This document shows, piece by piece, positions 3,976-37,609 of a stretch of DNA of 64,000 nucleotides; within the stretch, counting starts at the first letter, position 1; every line of letters starts with the position of its first letter. The stretch is from NCBI RefSeq assembly GCF_900258045.1, contig NZ_OGVD01000004.1:744001-808000 (forward strand), given 5' to 3'. The notes under the pieces are model-generated. The model was not told where the DNA came from and searched no databases. It was given only the letters and a program-made list of their open reading frames with translations. This stretch comes from Sphingorhabdus sp. EL138 (lineage in GTDB: Bacteria > Pseudomonadota > Alphaproteobacteria > Sphingomonadales > Sphingomonadaceae). The translations under genes and the position numbers were made by a program.

Positions 3976-6900
3976 ATGTCCAAGACTCCGTTCGTTCATC
4001 TGCGTGCTTTTTCGGCCTATACCATTCTGGACGGCGCGATGGAGCCAAAGGCGATGGGTGCAGTGGCCAAGGACCGTGGATTTCCGGCAATTGCGCTCAC
4101 GGACCGCATAGGTCTTTTCGCTTCGATGGCTTTTGATGACGGCTGTCGAGCCAATGGCATTCAACCAATAACCGGCTGTTTTTTGAGGGTAGCGCGGCCC
4201 GGTAGCGGTGCGGGCGATAAACCGGCATTGGACTGGATCGCGCTATATGCGCAGAATGAAGATGGTTATCAAAACCTCTGCAGACTGGTGTCGGCTTCTC
4301 ATCTGGAGCGCCCGGCAGAGCTCGATGCCCATATTCCGCTTGAGATGCTGGAACAGCATAATGCCGGCCTTTTGGCACTAACCGGTGGCGGGGAAGGGGC
4401 CGTCGCCCGGCTGATTGCGGAAGAGCAGCAGTCGGAGGCAGAGGCCTATTTGTCGCGGCTTCAGCAATATTTCCCTGACCGGCTGTATATCGAACTATCC
4501 CGCCGCGATGATCCAGTTGAAATGGCAGCTGAGTCCTGTTTGATTACACTGGCAATGGACAGGAATATCCCGCTCGTCGCAACCAATCCAAGCTGTTTTG
4601 CCGAACCCGGTTTTCACGAAGCCCATGATGCAATGAAATGCATTGCGGGGTCCGCTTATGTCGAGAATGATGACCGCGATAAACCGTCTCCGCATCTTTG
4701 GATAAAGAGCGATATGGTGATGGAGGATTTATTCTCCGACCTTCCGGAAGCGCTTGAAAACACGCTTGTGATAGCAAAGCGCTGCGCCTATTCACCGCCA
4801 CGCCGAGATCCCATTTTGCCCAGTCTGGCGGGCGATCTCGCTGGTGAGGCTGAACAGTTGCGCCGTGACGCGACAGCGGGGCTTGAGGAACGCCTTGCCC
4901 ATGCTGGTGAAATGGAAGAATCAGATCGGCAGGAATATTTTGACCGGCTTGATTTTGAAATCAACGTCATCGTCAATATGGGTTTTCCGGGCTATTTTCT
5001 GATCGTTGCAGACTTCATCAAATGGGCAAAGGATCAGGATATTCCAGTAGGCCCGGGGCGTGGCTCTGGTGCTGGCTCGGTGGTCGCATGGGCGCTGACG
5101 ATCACCGACCTTGATCCGATCAAACTGGGCCTGCTGTTCGAACGTTTCCTGAACCCGGAACGTGTGTCGATGCCTGACTTCGACATCGATTTCTGCGAAA
5201 CCCGCCGCGGTGAAGTGATCCGATATGTGCAGGAGAAATATGGCACGGGACAGGTCGCCCAGATTATCACCTTTGGTAAACTGAAAGCGCGAGCGGTTCT
5301 GCGCGACGTTGGCCGCGTTCTGCAAATGCCTTATGGGCAGGTCGACCGGTTGACCAAACTGGTGCCCAATCATCCAACGGATCCATGGGATCTGAAAAGG
5401 GCGCTGAACGGTATTTCTGAGCTGGCGCAAGAATATAAGCAGGCCGATGTGAAGCGCCTGTTCGATCTGGCGATGAAACTGGAAGGTTTGCCGCGCCACA
5501 GTTCGACCCACGCCGCCGGTGTCGTCATTGGTGACAGGCCGCTGGACCAGTTGGTCCCGCTCTATCGCGATCCACGATCGGATTTGCCCGTCACCCAGTT
5601 TGATATGAAATTTGTCGAGCAGGCGGGTCTGGTAAAGTTCGACTTTTTGGGTTTGAAAACGCTCTCTGTCCTGAAGAAGGCGGTGGAGCTGCTCGCCGAG
5701 CGCGATATAGAAGTTGATCTGTCGACATTGGCTTGGGACGACCCCAAGGTGTTCGAGCTGCTGCAAAGAGGCGATACCGTCGGTGTGTTCCAGCTTGAAT
5801 CGGAAGGTATGCGGCGGACGCTGGCGGCGGTTAAACCTACGAATTTCGGGGATATTATCGCTCTCGTTTCGCTCTACCGACCGGGCCCGATGGACAATAT
5901 CCCGCTCTTCGGAGATCGCAAGAACGGACGCGCGGAGCTGGCCTATCCGCACCCGCTGCTCGAAGATATCCTGAAAGAGACTTACGGGATCATCGTCTAT
6001 CAGGAACAGGTGATGCAGGCCGCGCAGGTCATTGCTGGCTATTCGCTTGGTGAAGCCGATATGCTGCGGCGTGCAATGGGCAAGAAGATCCAGTCTGAAA
6101 TGGATGCGCAGCGCAGTATCTTTGTCGAAGGCGCAGCCAAAAACGATGTTGAAAGTGATCAGGCCAATGAACTGTTTGACCTGATCGACAAATTTGCCGG
6201 CTATGGCTTTAACAAAAGCCACGCGGCTGCTTATGCGTTGCTGGCCTATCAGACGGCCTGGCTCAAAGCGCATTATCCGCATGAGTTTTACGCAGCCTCC
6301 ATGTGTTTCGATATGCATCAGAGTGACAAGCTCAGCATTTTTGTTGATGACATGAAGCGGCTTGGCGTGACGATATTGCCACCATCGATCAACAAAAGCC
6401 GACCGTCTTTTGCGGTTGAAGAGCAGGAGGGATCGCTGCTCGCCGTGCGTTATGCTTTGGCAGGGCTCAAAAATGTCGGCGAGAAGGCGATGCAGTCGTT
6501 GGTCGCCGAACGTGCCGAGAGCGGGCAGTTCCAGTCGATGGACGATTTTGCAAATCGTGTTGATCCGTCCGGCATGAACAAAAGACAGATTGAAAGCCTT
6601 GCCGCCGCGGGCGCCTTTGATGAAATGGAACCCAATCGCGCTGCCGTTTATGAAGGGGCGGACATGTTGCTGTCGGTTGCCAACAGTGCGGCAGAGGCAC
6701 GGACGAGCGGGCAGGGCGGTCTTTTCGGCGAAGGCGGAGCGGGTGACATGCAGGCCATCCGGCTGCCAGCGAACAGCAACTGGAATCTCAGCGAAATCAT
6801 GATGCGGGAGCGCGATGCTTACGGCTTCTACTTTGCCTCCCACCCGGTTACACAGTTTCAGGCGGTAACCTCCTCTCACGGGGCCATGACCTACGCAGCC

Positions 6901-7497
6901 TTGTGTGAAGAGGGGCCGATTGCCGAGGGGCAACGCAAGCCTGCGGTGATGGCAGCGCTGATCGAGGGCGTGCGCTGGCGGGAGAGCAAGCGCGGCAAAC
7001 GGTTCGTGCTTGTGGATCTGTCGGACAGCAGCGGGCAGTTTTCCGGCAGCTGTTTTGAGGAAGAGCAATGCGAATTGCTGGCTGATATGGCCAAGGAAGG
7101 TAGCTGTGCGCTGCTCAATGTCGAACTTGATCAGCGGTCTGATGACGAAAGTCCGCGGGTGGCGATCCGGCGGGCGCAGGCCATGGACGGTCTGGAAAAG
7201 ACCACCCGGACCCGGATGGAGCTGGAGGTTGCTGATCTCGACGCGCTGCAGGAGCTGAAGAATTTTCTCGCACCATTGGCAGGCGGCAAGAGCGAGTTGA
7301 TCGCGACGGTTCCCAGCTTTGATGGAGAAGTCGCGCAAATCTGCCTTGGCCGGTCTTTTCAGCTGGATGCGCAAGCGGCTGAAACACTGAGCCATATTAC
7401 TGGACTGGAGAATATCCGCTTGGGCCCTGCCACCGGTTCGCGGCCAGTTCGTCATCGCAATTCCAATTCAAGGCCCAATTTAAGACTTGTAAGCTGA
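3976..7497 (+). CDS. dnaE: DNA polymerase III subunit alpha
   Basis: This is the replicative polymerase catalytic subunit, 1173 residues, close to the usual length of DnaE1. The N-terminal PHP domain begins HLRAFSAYTILDGAM and lacks the second His and Asp of an active metal site (E. coli reads HLHVHSDYS), so it is probably structural. The palm aspartates are Asp401 and Asp403 in PDFDIDF, the same numbers as in E. coli. Other landmarks are GPGRGSGAGS, HSSTHAAGVVI, VKFDFLGLKTL, SLYRPGPM and NKSHAAAYA. A helix-hairpin-helix region and an OB fold follow towards the C-terminus. It is a single gene in its own transcription unit. The long minus-strand frame at 4921-7455 is its shadow. Confidence 0.97.
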   Translation: MSKTPFVHLRAFSAYTILDGAMEPKAMGAVAKDRGFPAIALTDRIGLFASMAFDDGCRANGIQPITGCFLRVARPGSGAGDKPALDWIALYAQNEDGYQNLCRLVSASHLERPAELDAHIPLEMLEQHNAGLLALTGGGEGAVARLIAEEQQSEAEAYLSRLQQYFPDRLYIELSRRDDPVEMAAESCLITLAMDRNIPLVATNPSCFAEPGFHEAHDAMKCIAGSAYVENDDRDKPSPHLWIKSDMVMEDLFSDLPEALENTLVIAKRCAYSPPRRDPILPSLAGDLAGEAEQLRRDATAGLEERLAHAGEMEESDRQEYFDRLDFEINVIVNMGFPGYFLIVADFIKWAKDQDIPVGPGRGSGAGSVVAWALTITDLDPIKLGLLFERFLNPERVSMPDFDIDFCETRRGEVIRYVQEKYGTGQVAQIITFGKLKARAVLRDVGRVLQMPYGQVDRLTKLVPNHPTDPWDLKRALNGISELAQEYKQADVKRLFDLAMKLEGLPRHSSTHAAGVVIGDRPLDQLVPLYRDPRSDLPVTQFDMKFVEQAGLVKFDFLGLKTLSVLKKAVELLAERDIEVDLSTLAWDDPKVFELLQRGDTVGVFQLESEGMRRTLAAVKPTNFGDIIALVSLYRPGPMDNIPLFGDRKNGRAELAYPHPLLEDILKETYGIIVYQEQVMQAAQVIAGYSLGEADMLRRAMGKKIQSEMDAQRSIFVEGAAKNDVESDQANELFDLIDKFAGYGFNKSHAAAYALLAYQTAWLKAHYPHEFYAASMCFDMHQSDKLSIFVDDMKRLGVTILPPSINKSRPSFAVEEQEGSLLAVRYALAGLKNVGEKAMQSLVAERAESGQFQSMDDFANRVDPSGMNKRQIESLAAAGAFDEMEPNRAAVYEGADMLLSVANSAAEARTSGQGGLFGEGGAGDMQAIRLPANSNWNLSEIMMRERDAYGFYFASHPVTQFQAVTSSHGAMTYAALCEEGPIAEGQRKPAVMAALIEGVRWRESKRGKRFVLVDLSDSSGQFSGSCFEEEQCELLADMAKEGSCALLNVELDQRSDDESPRVAIRRAQAMDGLEKTTRTRMELEVADLDALQELKNFLAPLAGGKSELIATVPSFDGEVAQICLGRSFQLDAQAAETLSHITGLENIRLGPATGSRPVRHRNSNSRPNLRLVS

Positions 7498-7542
7498 GCC
7501 GTTTCTGTCAAAAAAACAGCCAATAACTAACGGGAGAGACCA

Positions 7543-9150
7543 ATGGCTGGAGCTATGCAGGGCAGTGCGCTCAAAATCACCAATCTGATTGACCATGCAG
7601 CGCGTGAACATTCCACACGAGAAATTGTCAGCTATTGGGCCGACGGTTCGCTCACCCGCACCAATTGGGGTGAAATTGGTGAAGAATCGCGGAAATTTTC
7701 TCAGGCGCTGCAACGGCTTGGTATGAAAAAGGGCGACCGGATCGCGACTATCGCGATGAATCATGCCCATCATTTGATCAGCTGGTACGGCTCTGCGGGT
7801 ATTGGCGGCATTCTCCACACCGTGAACCCGCGGCTTTTTGAAGAACAACTGGTCTATATCATCAATCATGCCGAAGACCGGGTCCTCCTTTTCGACAAGA
7901 TGTTCACTCCGATCATCGAAATGCTGAAACCGCAGCTGAAGACGGTTGAACATTATATCCAGTTTGACGGAGAAAAGGGCGACTATCCAACTTTCCGTGA
8001 GCTGGTTGATGCCGAAGACGGAAATTTTGACTGGGTTGATGTCGATGAGAATGACCCCTGCGGCCTTTGTTATACCAGCGGCACCACCGGCAATCCCAAG
8101 GGTGTGCTCTATGAACATCGCTCCAATGTCCTGCATGCCCTGACCGAGGTGCAGCCTGATATTATGGACCTCGCGACGCGCTCCGTGATGCTGCCCGTCG
8201 TGCCGATGTTTCACGCCAATGCCTGGGGACTGCCTTTTGCCTGTGCGGCGGTTGGCGCGAAGATGGTTTTTTCGGCCAGCAACGAGGCGCCGGTTCTGTG
8301 GAAACTGATCCGCGAAGAGGGCGTTACCCATAGCGCTGGCGTACCGACCGTCTGGCTGTCGATGTTTGCCGATATGGACGCCAATGGCGGCGATTATGGC
8401 AAGCTGCAGGTGATCACGATCGGCGGTTCGGCCTGTCCACGGTCGATGATCGAGCGGCTGATGAAAAACGGCATGCGGGTGGCCCATGCCTGGGGGATGA
8501 CGGAAACCTCGCCCATCGGCACCGCAGGCTCGCTTCCCGCCAACTGGGACGACCTCGGCTTTGACGAACAGGTGGATGTGATCTGCAAACAGGGGCGGCC
8601 GCCCTTTGGTGTGGAACTCCGGGTGGTGGATGACGAGGGCAATGTCCTGCCGCGCGATGGCGAGTCGAGCGGGACCTTGGAAATCCGAGGCCCCTGGATC
8701 ATCCAGCGCTACTACCGCGCCGATGAAGAAGCGGTTGAGGATGATCTGTGGTTCGACACCGGTGACGTCGCCGTGCTCCATCCTGACGGGACAATGCAGA
8801 TTACTGATCGTGCCAAGGACGTGATAAAGTCGGGCGGCGAGTGGATCAGTTCGATCGAACTGGAAAACGCGGCCGTAGGCTGTCCCGGCGTCGCGGAAGC
8901 CGCTGCGGTCGGCGTCTATCACCCGAAATGGGATGAGCGGCCTCTGCTGCTCGTCGTCAAAAAACCTGACGCCGATGTGACTGGTGATGAGATAATCACC
9001 TATCTGACCGACAAGGTCGCAAAATGGTGGCTGCCCGATGAAGTGAAATTCATCGACGAATTGCCGCACACAGCGACCGGTAAAATCCTGAAACGGGCGC
9101 TGCGTGACGAGTATAAGGATTACAAGCTGAAAAGTCTGGCGGAGGCTTGA
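7543..9150 (+). CDS. Long/medium-chain fatty-acid-CoA ligase (AMP-binding family)
   Basis: This 535-residue acyl-CoA synthetase of the ANL superfamily activates a fatty acid to the acyl-adenylate and then to acyl-CoA. The P-loop is [11 protein letters not shown] (177-187). The A5 motif is AWGMTETSP, and A7 is WFDTGDVA. The hinge/A8 segment is [16 protein letters not shown], and the A10 lysine is in TGKILKR. It resembles the FadD/AlkK group acting on medium- to long-chain acids, but chain length cannot be read from sequence. GGGAG sits eight bases before the ATG. The gene is alone, converging on the HD-GYP gene. A 593-residue minus-strand frame over it is an antisense shadow. Confidence 0.93.
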
Positions 9151-33944: not shown

Positions 33945-34014
33945 GTGACCTGGGGATGAAAATTAATATCTGCTATGGACGCAAAGGCGGACGCTAGGTT
34001 TGGGCGACTAACGA

Positions 34015-34398
34015 TTAAAAGGCAGCCATCGCCAGATCGGGACTCAGGATAGCCAGAACGAGACCAATACCAATCGATCCAAAGAAAAACGTATGAAACT
34101 TGTTTCGTTCAAATGCGCCGGTGGCCAGTAAAGCTGAGGTAGCTCCAAGGTTGGAGACTATTCCCATAAAGACCACGCCAATTGGAAATTCGCCTTGTGT
34201 GATATGATAAATTCCACCTGAGTACCCAACCAGCAAGGCCAGTACCGCGATACCATAAATTCTATACAGGGTTGTGGATTTGGATTTCATGTTCATGATT
34301 GCATCAATTTTTTCGCCGGAAAAAACGACGAATGGAGTTACAACCGTCAAGAGAGATACGGCGATTTTGATGATCAATAATATCGTGAGAGGGGTCAT
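34015..34398 (-). CDS. Small four-helix membrane protein of unknown function
   Basis: This 127-residue protein has four hydrophobic segments (about 4-25, 46-64, 70-93 and 102-122), so it is an inner-membrane protein with short loops. I do not recognise a family. AAAGGA stands before the ATG. It is the last gene of the three-gene minus-strand unit with the exported HD-domain protein and the flavin monooxygenase, 53 bases after the HD gene, and so is presumably under the same TetR operator. Confidence 0.65.
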   Translation of the reverse strand: MTPLTILLIIKIAVSLLTVVTPFVVFSGEKIDAIMNMKSKSTTLYRIYGIAVLALLVGYSGGIYHITQGEFPIGVVFMGIVSNLGATSALLATGAFERNKFHTFFFGSIGIGLVLAILSPDLAMAAF

Positions 34399-34451
34399 CC
34401 GAATATCCTTTCAGAAGATTTGAAAATGCGGTGAGCTGGAATTTTCTGTGC

Positions 34452-35153
34452 TCACTCGGCGAAAGGGGCGTTTCGGATCAGGTCGCTGACCGGAACCTGT
34501 TTGTAAGTTTGTCCGATCCGAGAATTTGGTTTCGCAAGAGCTTGGCGTTCGAGCATTGAAATCAAGAGCGATTTTGTACCGTGCCTGGGATGTGACTTTA
34601 GGATATTGCCAATGACGTCCGGGTCGAGTCTATCCAACCCCGCGCCCACAACATCGGCCAACGCACCGCGCGCTACCAAGGCAAATTCATAGTTATCGTG
34701 CCTGGCTGTGGCAGGATTGGTATGGAGGTTTATAGCTCGAGCTACTTTCTGGCCGAGTTCAGCAAAACCTTGCTGTGTTAGAAATGCCTGCGCTGCTTCA
34801 CCGCCGTTGGTTTCAAAATCACCCGCTTTATCAAATGGATCTTCCAAACCAATATCATGCAAAAGCATGGAAACATAAACCAGTTCTGTATCGAACGATT
34901 TACCCTCGGCCTCTGCAAAGGCCGCAGCAAACAGATAGGACCTCTTGACGTGAGAGACCATTATGTCACCGCTGTAATCCTCTACAAATCTCTCGGTTGC
35001 CCGGATTGCTGGCGTCTCGGGAAACTGGCTCGTAGAGTTTTCGGCCTCAATGTCATCATGCCGATCTTCTATCTCATCAGCATGAATTGCAGGTGTCATT
35101 GTAAGGGCTAAGGCCAATCCGAACGCGGTAATTATTCTGTTCTGATTCATCAT
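34452..35153 (-). CDS. Exported HD-domain protein, cyanamide-hydratase-like
   Basis: The protein has 233 residues with a signal peptide (IITAFGLALALTMTPAIHA), so the domain sits in the periplasm. The HD fold shows HVKRSYLFAAAFAEA, the metal pair in MLLHDIGLEDPF, INLHTNP, and ADVVGAGLDRLDP. The order H...HD...H...D and the DIGLE stretch recall the cyanamide hydratase branch of HD proteins, not c-di-GMP or nucleotide phosphohydrolases. Exported HD enzymes are uncommon. It lies 22 bases after the flavin monooxygenase gene. The activity is not known. Confidence 0.75.
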   Translation of the reverse strand: MMNQNRIITAFGLALALTMTPAIHADEIEDRHDDIEAENSTSQFPETPAIRATERFVEDYSGDIMVSHVKRSYLFAAAFAEAEGKSFDTELVYVSMLLHDIGLEDPFDKAGDFETNGGEAAQAFLTQQGFAELGQKVARAINLHTNPATARHDNYEFALVARGALADVVGAGLDRLDPDVIGNILKSHPRHGTKSLLISMLERQALAKPNSRIGQTYKQVPVSDLIRNAPFAE

Positions 35154-35175
35154 ACTTCCATCCTTTGTTGAGCGA

Positions 35176-36465
35176 TTAGATATTTAGTTGTTCTTCCAAA
35201 TGCTTAAGGGCCGAGAGATAATTTGCATTGTCGACATATCCGACATGGCGAGATGAGTTGATCTTGCCGGTCGTGTGCGCTTTCAAATCCGCTTCATTGA
35301 CCATTTCGGTGAACGCAGAATCGCGGCAGGATTTTGCTGCTTTTTGTGCAATGAGCCGGGCAATGATCTTGGCCAGACGATCGAACAGCCCGAAGACGCC
35401 GCCATTTGTTTCGATCATGCCATTGAAATAGATATTTTGCGCCGACGGGTGGAAAGCTGACATTTTAAGGCTTGGCCGCGTACCCTCCTGATAGTTCAGT
35501 AGATTGTCCGGCAAAAAGCTCATCGTCGCCCGATAACCGGTGGCGCAGATAATCTCGTCTACTTCATCCAGTTCCCCGGACTTGAAACATACCGATTCAC
35601 CTTCCAGACACGCAACATCTCCTCTTGGCTGAATGCGACCATGCCCTAGGTGCTGCAATATGTCGTTGTTCATAATAGGGTGGCTGGCCAGCGGTTCATG
35701 ATCCGGTGCTGGCAAACCGAAACGCTTTGGATTTCCGACCATCATCGCTAGAAAAGCGGTAAAATCAGGTGGTGAAAGCCAATCAGGCATTTTCATGTTT
35801 CGAGCAAAGAAGACATCCGTTGGATGGCCCATGACAAATTTTGGCAAGAACCAATATCCGCGGCGCAGGCTCAGATAAGCTTTGTCTGCCGTTCGAGCAG
35901 CGTCGCAGGCGATGTCCACGCCCGAATTTCCGCAGCCAAGTATCAGTATCTTTTTGTCGCGAAATTCCTCCGGATCCCGGTAGGTTTGGCTGTGCCGGAT
36001 CATACCTGAGAATGAACCCTCGAATTCCGGCGTCACAGCATCCCACAAAGTTCCACTGCACACAATGATCGCATCGCAGTCTTCCGAAAACCCCTGACCA
36101 TCGATCCGCCATCCACCATTTTCCAGGGGGCGACATCGCTCTATTTCCGATTCAAACCGGATCAGCGGGTAGAGGTCCTCCAGGTCGGCAAAAGACCGCA
36201 AATAATCATGCACCTGTGCATGGCTGGGATATTCCGGAATATCGGTCGAAAACGGATGTCCCGCAAAATGAGACATATCATGGCCCTTCGACGAAATGAA
36301 ATGGGCCGACCGGTACATGGGCGTACCGGGCGCTTCGATGTCCCAAATTCCACCAACATCTCGATTTCTTTCAAAGACAATAGTTTCAAAGCCTGCATCT
36401 TTCATTGCCCGTGCGGTAGCCAGACCAGCTGGACCCGCTCCAATTACACCAATCTTTAGTTCCAT
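35176..36465 (-). CDS. Flavin-containing monooxygenase (FMO/BVMO-type)
   Basis: This 429-residue FAD/NADPH enzyme would oxygenate a soft nucleophile (N or S) or a ketone. The FAD Rossmann motif is GVIGAGPAGLATA at the N-terminus. The FMO fingerprint is FSGMIRHSQTY. The NADPH Rossmann motif is ILGCGNSGVDIA, and ICATGY is near the C-terminal third. The ATG at 36465 is preferred to a TTG four codons earlier. It heads the operon with the exported HD protein and the four-helix protein, and its promoter is interleaved with the TetR operator, so it is probably induced by a small molecule. Confidence 0.9.
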   Translation of the reverse strand: MELKIGVIGAGPAGLATARAMKDAGFETIVFERNRDVGGIWDIEAPGTPMYRSAHFISSKGHDMSHFAGHPFSTDIPEYPSHAQVHDYLRSFADLEDLYPLIRFESEIERCRPLENGGWRIDGQGFSEDCDAIIVCSGTLWDAVTPEFEGSFSGMIRHSQTYRDPEEFRDKKILILGCGNSGVDIACDAARTADKAYLSLRRGYWFLPKFVMGHPTDVFFARNMKMPDWLSPPDFTAFLAMMVGNPKRFGLPAPDHEPLASHPIMNNDILQHLGHGRIQPRGDVACLEGESVCFKSGELDEVDEIICATGYRATMSFLPDNLLNYQEGTRPSLKMSAFHPSAQNIYFNGMIETNGGVFGLFDRLAKIIARLIAQKAAKSCRDSAFTEMVNEADLKAHTTGKINSSRHVGYVDNANYLSALKHLEEQLNI

Positions 36466-36492
36466 TACGTTTGCCAATCACAATTAACTTAT

Positions 36493-36537
36493 AACATGAA
36501 TAATGTTCATATTTGATAAATGAACATTATTCATGTT
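36493..36537. promoter_or_regulatory. Double TetR-type operator in the FMO/tetR intergenic region
   Basis: AACATGAATAATGTTCAT (36493-36510) and ATGAACATTATTCATGTT (36520-36537) are exact inverted repeats 9 bases apart. Each contains its own palindrome, ATGAA-N5-TTCAT, so two regulator dimers could bind side by side. On the minus strand TTGACA (36545-36540) and ATTTAT (36521-36516), 18 bases apart, could be the FMO promoter with the right-hand site in its spacer. On the plus strand TTGATA (36513-36518) and TTACTG (36536-36541) could serve tetR. Binding should block both directions. Confidence 0.85.
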
Positions 36538-36548
36538 ACTGTCAAGCT

Positions 36549-37184
36549 ATGCCCACGGAAAAAGAAAAATTTGACAACAATACTACTTGGCGCGAGCCGG
36601 TTCAGGCGCGTGGAAAGAAGCGCGTAGCGGCCATTCTGGACGCCGCCAGAGAACTCGTTGTAGAATTGGGTTCGACTGATTTGAAAATGACTGAATTGGC
36701 TCGAAGAGCCGAAATACCGGTCGGCTCTCTATATCAGTTTTTTCCGACTCGCGCTTCGTTACTCTCGCGATTGTTCGAGATTGAAATGGGACCGATTGAT
36801 GATGCTTTGAGAAAAGGCCTCAAACACGCCAACTCGGTCGATGAAATCGTTCGAGGTGTCGAATCCCTAATGAAACTCACACTTAAACTTGTTCGCCAAC
36901 GCCCTTGCCTGTTTGTGATTTGGTCCAGCCCGGAAACCAACCCCGTTATCCGGCAAGCTGATTTTGACAATACCAAACGCAATAGCGCGGCTTTGTCCAA
37001 GCGCATATCTGAGCTTGCGAGCGAGAGTATCAATCCAAAAAAGGTACATGCAACGTCGATGCTCATTTGTCATCTTTGGGGGGCAGTTGTTCGGCTATGC
37101 ATTACCGCCGATGAGGAAGACTATTCCGATGCCATATTACCAGAATATGTAGAGATGATCCAAAGACATTTGCGAAACCTCTGA
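36549..37184 (+). CDS. TetR-family transcriptional repressor
   Basis: This 211-residue protein has an N-terminal TetR helix-turn-helix: ILDAARELVVELG, then MTELARRAEIPVGSLYQFFPTRASLLSRLF, where the YQFFP segment is the recognition helix. The C-terminal half is a variable ligand-binding domain. The ATG at 36549 is chosen although the frame opens earlier, because the upstream ATGs lie inside the operator. A plausible promoter would give a nearly leaderless mRNA. It is divergent from the FMO operon across an 83-base gap holding the double operator, so it probably represses both itself and that operon. Confidence 0.9.
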   Translation: MPTEKEKFDNNTTWREPVQARGKKRVAAILDAARELVVELGSTDLKMTELARRAEIPVGSLYQFFPTRASLLSRLFEIEMGPIDDALRKGLKHANSVDEIVRGVESLMKLTLKLVRQRPCLFVIWSSPETNPVIRQADFDNTKRNSAALSKRISELASESINPKKVHATSMLICHLWGAVVRLCITADEEDYSDAILPEYVEMIQRHLRNL

Positions 37185-37534
37185 CGATGCGTGTGCCCGC
37201 TTTCGGGATAAGGCAGACATCCCTCTATTTTCCTACAACCCGTCTCATGGATTATGCTCGACTTGGTTTTTTGACATTGGCAAATATGAGGTGGTGATGC
37301 GGTTTGGTGGGCACTTTCGAAAGGTCACACTCGCTTAAGTCAATTCTATTATTAATTAATTGATACTAAAAGATTTTTTGTAACGAATATCGAGAGCAAA
37401 ACTGGCTTTCCATGTGAACAACAGGCGCATGCTCGTGGTTCGCTTTCGGAATCATGTGGGCGCAAAAATCAGCACACGATCAATCCGACGCGACCGTACC
37501 CGTATATATATTTGATCTTGTTTTGAGAGAAAAA
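37185..37534. other. 350-base gap without a recognised gene
   Basis: This stretch between the TetR gene and tRNA-Asn has no credible coding frame. It contains an AT-rich block around 37345-37385 (TATTATTAATTAATTGAT) and T-runs. No direct repeat of the tRNA 3' end, no integrase remnant and no strong terminator hairpin was seen. On the minus strand the bases just after the tRNA read TTTTTCTCTC, which could be where the tRNA transcript ends. Confidence 0.5.
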
Positions 37535-37609
37535 TGGCTCCCCGGGACGGATTCGAACCATCGGCCAATCGATTAACAGTCGATTGCTCTACCACTGAGC
37601 TACCGGGGA
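37535..37609 (-). tRNA. tRNA-Asn (anticodon GTT)
   Basis: On the minus strand the 75-base gene starts TCCCCGG and ends CCGGGGA-G-CCA, so acceptor arms pair fully and CCA is encoded. The D-loop is AGCTCAGTGGTAGAGC. The anticodon loop CTGTTAA holds GTT in the stem ATCGA/TCGAT. The T-arm is GGTTCGAATCC. It sits between the TetR-controlled module and nadK. Confidence 0.97.

Follow-up and report, generated by a model that had tools for sequence, protein, structure and literature searches.

A putative TetR-linked cassette of a flavin-containing monooxygenase, a predicted exported HD-domain protein and a small membrane protein in Sphingorhabdus sp. EL138

Flavin-containing monooxygenases (FMOs) carry the signature FxGxxxHxxx(F/Y), while the type I Baeyer-Villiger monooxygenases carry the motif FxGxxxHxxxW. 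Small multidrug resistance transporters have four helices and a length of about 110 amino acids. Cyanamide hydratases convert cyanamide to urea by adding water. For the HD superfamily, a 2020 review (PMC8177086) names the cyanamide hydratase Ddi2 as the single known lyase and gives its Zn ligands as H ... HD. Here we describe a locus where genes for an FMO, a Ddi2-related HD protein and a small membrane protein are found together next to a TetR gene. The analysis covered a window of 64,000 nucleotides, i.e., the whole stretch of DNA from Sphingorhabdus sp. EL138 to which all positions refer.

Gene layout, putative operator and site of insertion

The genes for the FMO (35176..36477), the HD-domain protein (34452..35153) and the small hydrophobic membrane protein (34015..34398) were all located on the minus strand, with intergenic gaps of 22 and 53 bases in the open reading frame listing of the window. 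A gene for a TetR-type regulator (36549..37184, plus strand) diverges from this trio, and a perfect inverted repeat resembling an operator (36492..36538) is located in between. The first-pass annotation had described three closely spaced genes divergent from a TetR gene across a large symmetrical operator, and the reading frames, the gaps and the repeat were all confirmed.

The regulator matched PF00440 and PF17928 above their cut-offs, with 33.9 bits for TetR_N (cut-off 24). The arms of the repeat (36492-36510 and 36520-36538) are complementary at 19 of 19 positions with 9 bases between them, and each arm contains a near-palindrome (12 of 15 positions). The 15-base core had two matches in the window at two or fewer mismatches (0.14 expected), and a search of the whole genome with the 19-base arm at up to three mismatches returned two matches, which were the two arms themselves. 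Since the listed TTG start codon of the TetR gene (36513) falls inside the repeat, the ATG at 36549, giving a protein of 211 amino acids, is the more likely start. With a TetR_N domain above the cut-off, a divergent gene and a palindromic repeat between the two, the locus has the layout of a TetR-type system as proposed earlier; the repeat is a putative operator and the regulation itself is predicted. A promoter scan gave no excess (4 found, 5.5 expected), and the outcome of a terminator scan (8 found, 4.1 expected) was given no weight.

The cassette is situated in a stretch that extends from tauE to a gene for tRNA-Asn (gtt) on the minus strand (33945..37534 and 37535..37609, respectively). 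In five congeners tauE and the tRNA gene were only 47-71 bases apart, i.e., the site is nearly empty, and the G+C content of the stretch was 47.8% compared to 53.9% outside. On these two grounds the window copy looks inserted, and it was probably acquired horizontally. Only short, chance-like direct repeats were found at the borders of the stretch. The content beside tauE differed among congeners.

Features of the three proteins

The FMO has 433 amino acids when read from the TTG at 36477, while the ATG at 36465 may serve as an alternative start (429 amino acids). It matched the FMO-like family PF00743 over nearly its full length (172 bits, cut-off 22) and contains GxGxxG twice, FSGMIRHSQTY and ICATGY. 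The Pfam score, the motifs for FAD and NADPH and the FMO signature all place it in the FMO family. The nearest solved chains were 8z16/8z12 (432 aa, E 1.9e-52). FSGMIRHSQTY ends in Tyr and not in Trp, so it departs from the type I Baeyer-Villiger motif. The score of the protein was below the NCBIfam equivalog cut-offs for trimethylamine monooxygenase (93.9 of 675 bits) and ArsO (97.8 of 425 bits).

The HD-domain protein (233 amino acids) matched PF01966 with 29.3 bits (cut-off 22) and Ddi2 by profile with an E-value of 1e-7. A structural model built from three sequences (mean pLDDT 62.5, pTM 0.68) superimposed on yeast Ddi2 (6dka, 6dk9, 6dkd) with Z 17.9 over 179 residues, rmsd 2.9 and 20% identity, and the next entry, which no other listed HD protein exceeded, had Z 10.0. 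As judged from this model, the protein has a Ddi2-like fold clear of other HD folds. The candidate metal-site residues H68, H99-D100, H144 and D167 were conserved in all nine aligned sequences, including three copies from this genome. H68 and H99-D100 align with the H...HD Zn ligands of Ddi2, and the histidine at H144 aligns as well. Opposite T157 of Ddi2, where a Ddi2-type protein would carry no Asp, the alignment has a gap of one residue, and in a reading that assumes a tag offset the equivalent may be either A166 or D167. The first-pass annotation had called the protein cyanamide-hydratase-like; this stands for the fold and the ligands, but the curated cyanamide hydratase model TIGR03401 gave only 46.2 bits (E 3.9e-12), far below its cut-off of 109.85.

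Residues 7-25 form a hydrophobic stretch, and signal-like hydrophobic N termini were found in all three HD copies of this genome, consistent with the earlier proposal of export; the protein is accordingly predicted to be exported. No hydrophobic N terminus was present in the HD relatives L037, L038 and L048.

In the three HD copies of this genome an extra histidine, H152, completes the order H...HD...H...H...D, which is the oxygenase motif order in PMC8177086. This would fit a PhnZ/TmpB-like diiron oxygenase acting in tandem with the FMO. However, H152 was present in only four of the nine aligned sequences (the three own copies and L038), and PhnZ ranked 40th in the fold search with an E-value of 0.81 compared to 2.1e-5 for Ddi2. 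The spacing also differs from that in PhnZ, which we count against this explanation, and altogether we find it very improbable.

The membrane protein (127 amino acids) had no Pfam family at E ≤ 0.1. Small multidrug resistance transporters were considered as a candidate family; of the two further copies of the protein in this genome, one had no Pfam match at E ≤ 1 and the other matched only DUF7555 (17.1 of 28 bits). An alignment of six sequences gave LY(R/K)(L/I)YG and G(L/I)(V/L)SNxG as an approximate family signature. The protein was initially described as having four helices. A single-sequence model of low confidence (mean pLDDT 56.5) did contain four long helices plus one short helix, but hydropathy indicated three hydrophobic stretches in the window copy and more in the other copies.

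Recurrence within the genome and in other genomes

Contig C3 of this genome carries a second trio with the same gene order (L021, 6098-8580), with 69, 59 and 54% identity to the FMO, HD and membrane protein of the window. A third FMO-HD pair (L021, 306-2334) is followed by a tautomerase gene, and an FMO C-terminal remnant of 39 amino acids (E 1e-9) is followed by genes for a tautomerase and a membrane protein (L021, 4396-5268). The three full FMOs of this genome group together with a support of 100/100. This recurrence agrees with the first-pass proposal that the genes make up one unit. The FMO-HD order was kept in all three copies, the identity to the window proteins being 56-69% for FMO and 56-59% for HD, and their regulators differ: the C3 versions are flanked by HxlR regulators or a remnant, while the window copy adjoins TetR. 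The best NCBIfam match of the C3 HxlR proteins was the redox regulator RrpB, below the cut-off (46-48 of 175 bits). Genes for GST and for FrmA/FrmB (formaldehyde detoxification, above their cut-offs) were found near the C3 versions.

The membrane-protein family was present in 5 of 384 other genomes of the class, from three other genera. An FMO relative was present in nine of the 384, among them all five with the membrane protein; the probability of such a co-occurrence by chance is 1.9e-9, or 1.0e-5 when genomes were collapsed to genera. As immediate neighbours the trio was found in this genome only (two intact sets and partial ones). In a comparison that included the proteins of the window, an HD relative was near 2 of 13 FMO relatives, both from one genus (g127), the membrane protein was near none of the 13, and none of the five membrane-protein relatives was near an FMO or HD gene. 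For the refuting condition of the first-pass annotation, that homologues of the three genes are rarely neighbours, the outcome was mixed. The three genes are inherited together, and the set they form is uncommon and occupies varying positions.

HD relatives were found in 10 other genomes of a 196-genome sample of relatives, the best matches being at most 34% identical. Neither FMO nor membrane protein was found at 13 HD-relative loci examined from this sample, most of which had only about 1.5 kb of flank. GTDB contigs, scanned with the single HD protein and then with the three-copy alignment, held no close relatives, and the two distant loci obtained (Kordia and a Flavobacteriales MAG) showed neither an FMO nor the membrane protein in the stretches examined. 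Viral contigs gave no FMO match. Plasmids gave no membrane-protein match at E ≤ 0.01, and their HD and FMO matches were all below 60% identity; in a DNA-level plasmid search with 543 records, the 20 matches listed were all at the tRNA.

The genes could also be separate stress genes gathered as cargo, sharing a regulator and acting on different toxicants with no common substrate. The variable stretch beside tauE, the tautomerase, GST and FrmA/FrmB genes intermixed with the C3 versions and the different predicted compartments of FMO and HD fit this explanation, as do the membrane-protein relatives elsewhere, which lie apart from FMO and HD and in two of five cases adjoin HxlR. However, the FMO-HD order was maintained in three diverged copies beside different regulators, and genus g127 likewise has an HD relative close to an FMO relative. 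We consider unconnected cargo rather unlikely.

TetR relatives were found in the stretches around 8 of the 13 FMO relatives, and the window TetR did not match those of L043, L044 and L045. A short-chain dehydrogenase/reductase (SDR) gene was adjacent to, or within the read stretch of, 10 of the 13 (L036, L037, L038, L042-L047, and L098), as named by Pfam for L038, from the record annotation for L045-L047 and by eye for the others. These SDR neighbours would suit an FMO of the Baeyer-Villiger type, or one acting in ketone/alcohol catabolism, with the exported HD protein hydrolyzing its product (ester, amide or phosphate) instead of hydrating a nitrile. Likewise, HD keeps Asp D167, as do the HD hydrolases described in PMC8177086. 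The cassette itself, however, lacks an SDR gene, the FMO motif ends in Tyr, and the HD fold is much nearer to Ddi2 than to the other HD proteins listed; we rate this alternative slightly below the cargo one. Several observations weigh against a joint pathway of the trio, namely that its genes were seen as neighbours only in this genome, that SDR is the commoner FMO neighbour elsewhere, that the five membrane-protein relatives lie apart from FMO and HD, that HD scores below the cyanamide hydratase cut-off and that the promoter scan gave no excess.

Proposed pathway and comparison with known systems

We give an even chance to the reading that the locus is a mobile cassette serving detoxification or catabolism under inducible control, which would combine a cytoplasmic flavin oxygenation with a periplasmic metal-dependent hydration or hydrolysis. 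TetR bound to the 19+19 repeat would silence its own gene as well as the operon of FMO, HD and membrane protein genes, and a small ligand would release it. As expected from its family, the FMO would be a cytoplasmic enzyme that, with FAD, NADPH and O2, oxygenates a small compound containing nitrogen or sulfur. The exported HD protein, with a metal held by H68/H99/D100, would add water in the periplasm to the same compound or to the product of the neighbouring step. Judged from the fold, this step could hydrate a nitrile-type group or be a different hydrolysis. With the FMO predicted on one side of the membrane and HD on the other, a shared substrate would have to cross it, and the small membrane protein may be a partner. 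A bolder version, which we hold only tentatively and deem improbable, is that an exported branch of the cyanamide hydratase fold and an FMO form a two-compartment pathway linked by small membrane proteins of a new family, in a cassette that switches between TetR and HxlR as it moves.

A predicted exported bacterial Ddi2 relative in a repeated cassette offers a handle on other roles of this fold, and regulator, FMO and HD enzyme would be expected to answer to one compound class. In addition, the cassette draws attention to a membrane-protein family that lacks annotation and that, in the class sample, co-occurs with FMOs of this group in three further genera.

Compared to known FMOs of PF00743, the window FMO is set apart by the adjoining HD and membrane protein genes. 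The window HD protein differs from Ddi2 in being predicted to be exported and in scoring below the curated cyanamide hydratase cut-off. The closest gene arrangements were FMO-SDR units from other genomes of the class (L036, L037, L038, L043, and L044), where a TetR gene diverges from an FMO 39-42% identical to that of the window; in these units an SDR gene adjoins the FMO or lies close by, whereas the window cassette has the exported HD protein and the membrane protein instead. The C3 versions resemble HxlR-flanked stress gene sets, with an RrpB-like HxlR and with GST and FrmA/FrmB nearby, while the window copy has TetR instead.

Organization of the window cassette

The first-pass annotation had described three minus-strand genes, encoding a flavin-containing monooxygenase (FMO), a predicted exported HD-domain protein and a small membrane protein, divergent from a TetR gene. 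The ORF listing agreed with these positions and with the gaps of 22 and 53 bases between the three genes. The large symmetrical element noted between FMO and TetR was found to be a perfect inverted repeat (36492-36538) with 19-base arms and a 9-base spacer, making it a candidate operator. FMO probably starts at the ATG at 36465 and TetR at the ATG at 36549; since the repeat would then occupy most of the interval separating the two start codons, binding here should block both genes. Each arm contains a 15-base near-palindrome (12/15 positions), an arrangement that would accommodate a pair of adjacent repressor dimers. A whole-genome scan allowing up to 3 mismatches found no further site for the 19-base arm. 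Based on the gene spacing and the repeat, co-regulation of the trio is likely.

The FMO matched PF00743 with 172 bits (cut-off 22) and carries the FAD and NADPH motifs, FxGxxxHxxxY and ATGY. Among solved chains it came closest to 8z16, a flavin monooxygenase of 432 residues (E 1.9e-52), and to ancestral FMOs, and it fell under the cut-offs of the ArsO and trimethylamine monooxygenase models. The small membrane protein had no Pfam family match.

The HD protein matched PF01966, while its 46.2 bits for the cyanamide-hydratase subfamily model fell short of the cut-off of 109.85. By profile, the top solved relative was the yeast cyanamide hydratase Ddi2 (E 1e-7). A structure model built from three sequences (mean pLDDT 62.5, pTM 0.68) resembled Ddi2 with Z 17.9 across 179 residues in a fold search, the next entry having Z 10.0. 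Residues H68, H99, D100, H144 and D167 were conserved in all nine aligned sequences, the three copies of this genome among them. All three copies have a hydrophobic N-terminal stretch, and in copy C a lipobox-like LVGC was recognized by eye. The stretch was lacking in the three relatives checked (L037, L038, and L048). FMO and HD protein are predicted to be on opposite sides of the membrane.

Probable insertion beside tRNA-Asn and further copies

The window cassette stretch (33945-37534) is bordered by tauE and tRNA-Asn, which are 3590 bases apart. tauE was present at E ≤ 1e-40 in 25 of 30 genus genomes including our own, giving 24 congener loci with about 1.5 kb of flank each; tRNA-Asn was found within this flank at seven. 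The distance was 47-71 bases in five congeners (L073, L075, L076, L077, and L081), while L071 and L072 had another gene in the interval, which measured about 0.9 and 1.2 kb. The near congener L094 had no tRNA-Asn in about 9 kb past tauE, and the remaining 16 loci had no tRNA in the short (about 1.5 kb) flank. The G+C content of the window stretch was 47.8% vs 53.9% outside, and none of 303 window stretches of the same length was equally low. Flanking repeats were not found at its borders. The simplest reading is that the cassette was acquired beside the tRNA gene.

The interval beyond tauE was variable in the genus, being nearly empty in five species and holding other genes elsewhere. By eye, L094 has two LysR-like genes after tauE and L096 a flavodoxin-fold-like protein.

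The genome (3.66 Mb, 4 contigs) carries further cassette versions on contig C3, at locus L021. A second trio in the same order (6098-8580) was 69, 59, and 54% identical to the window FMO, HD and membrane proteins, respectively. An FMO-HD pair at 306-2334 (56 and 56% identity) is followed by a protein without Pfam match and by a GST. The Pfam-less protein is 37% identical (E 1e-37) to a tautomerase (PF01361) located together with a more distant membrane protein (33%) at 4396-5268. A remnant of an FMO C terminus, 39 residues long (E 1e-9), lies in the gap preceding this tautomerase. This remnant and the FMO at 306 each have a divergent HxlR gene, and HxlR fragments precede the FMO at 6098. The FMO and HxlR remnants (4120-4396 and 5268-6098) show that C3 cassettes were lost and rearranged. 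Altogether, FMO occurs at four places in the genome (one being the remnant), and HD and membrane protein at three each, with varying neighbouring regulators.

Beside an HxlR gene, a perfect 18-base inverted repeat with a 9-base spacer (4134-4178) has the layout of the window TetR repeat, and a CTGAGT/ACTCAG motif was seen again ahead of the FMO at 6098. Upstream of the C3 cassettes, at locus L020, a large serine-recombinase-like protein (715-2340) and a transposase-like frame (4385-4834) were recognized by eye from translation.

Distribution of the three families

FMO relatives at E ≤ 1e-100 were found in 10 of 385 class genomes, membrane proteins at E ≤ 1e-5 in 6 and HD proteins at E ≤ 1e-30 in 4, our own included each time. 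Within the order, only our own genome among 396 had an FMO relative at E ≤ 1e-90; in the phylum sample, FMO relatives occurred in 4/200 genomes, one of them new. Excluding our own, all five membrane-protein genomes were within the nine FMO genomes (chance 1.9e-9, or 1.0e-5 by genus), as were two of three HD genomes (chance 1.5e-3); these chances are rough, as the thresholds were self-chosen and the genomes are related. Adjacency of the three families was weaker than this co-occurrence. In the 11-15 kb stretches read around 13 FMO relatives (9 from the class genomes, 1 from the phylum sample and 3 from plasmids), HD was near in two, both from one genus (g127) and also carrying TetR, serine hydroxymethyltransferase, SDR and a GFA gene, and the membrane protein in none. 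A relative of the window TetR lay inside the stretch for 8/13, and an SDR, mostly named by eye, was adjacent or near in 10/13. None of the five membrane-protein relatives had FMO or HD nearby, and two, from one genus, were divergent from an HxlR gene. The trio was shown to be co-inherited, and since its place varies, its G+C is low and it is rare, it follows that it is mobile.

Two genomes have an apparent transporter-monooxygenase fusion, with the FMO relative behind an amino-acid-permease-like protein (L042 4378-7209 and L046 5507-8407; frames of 943 and about 966 aa). The permease part was named by eye in L042 and by annotation in L046, where the fusion is near an annotated dimethylamine monooxygenase subunit.

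Putative function and relation to known enzymes

FrmA and FrmB, both over their cut-offs, are encoded just upstream of the C3 cassettes, and a second GST lies behind the membrane protein of copy B. The best NCBIfam match of two HxlR proteins was the redox regulator RrpB (46-48 of 175 bits). Because HxlR, GST, and FrmA/FrmB adjoin the C3 versions, the context points to reactive-compound stress.

No paper on an FMO with a cyanamide-hydratase-like HD protein was found among the titles and abstract openings listed by searches of a collection of open papers. The matching table row of PMC7764795 has a putative FMO without such a cassette, and the passages matched in PMC10574752 were entries of its reference list.

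With FMO and HD protein predicted on different sides of the membrane, they may share a diffusible compound, or the HD step may be a first line of defence outside. By the chemistry of its family, the FMO would carry out N- or S-oxygenation, and by its Ddi2 fold the HD protein would use a metal to add water to a small compound.
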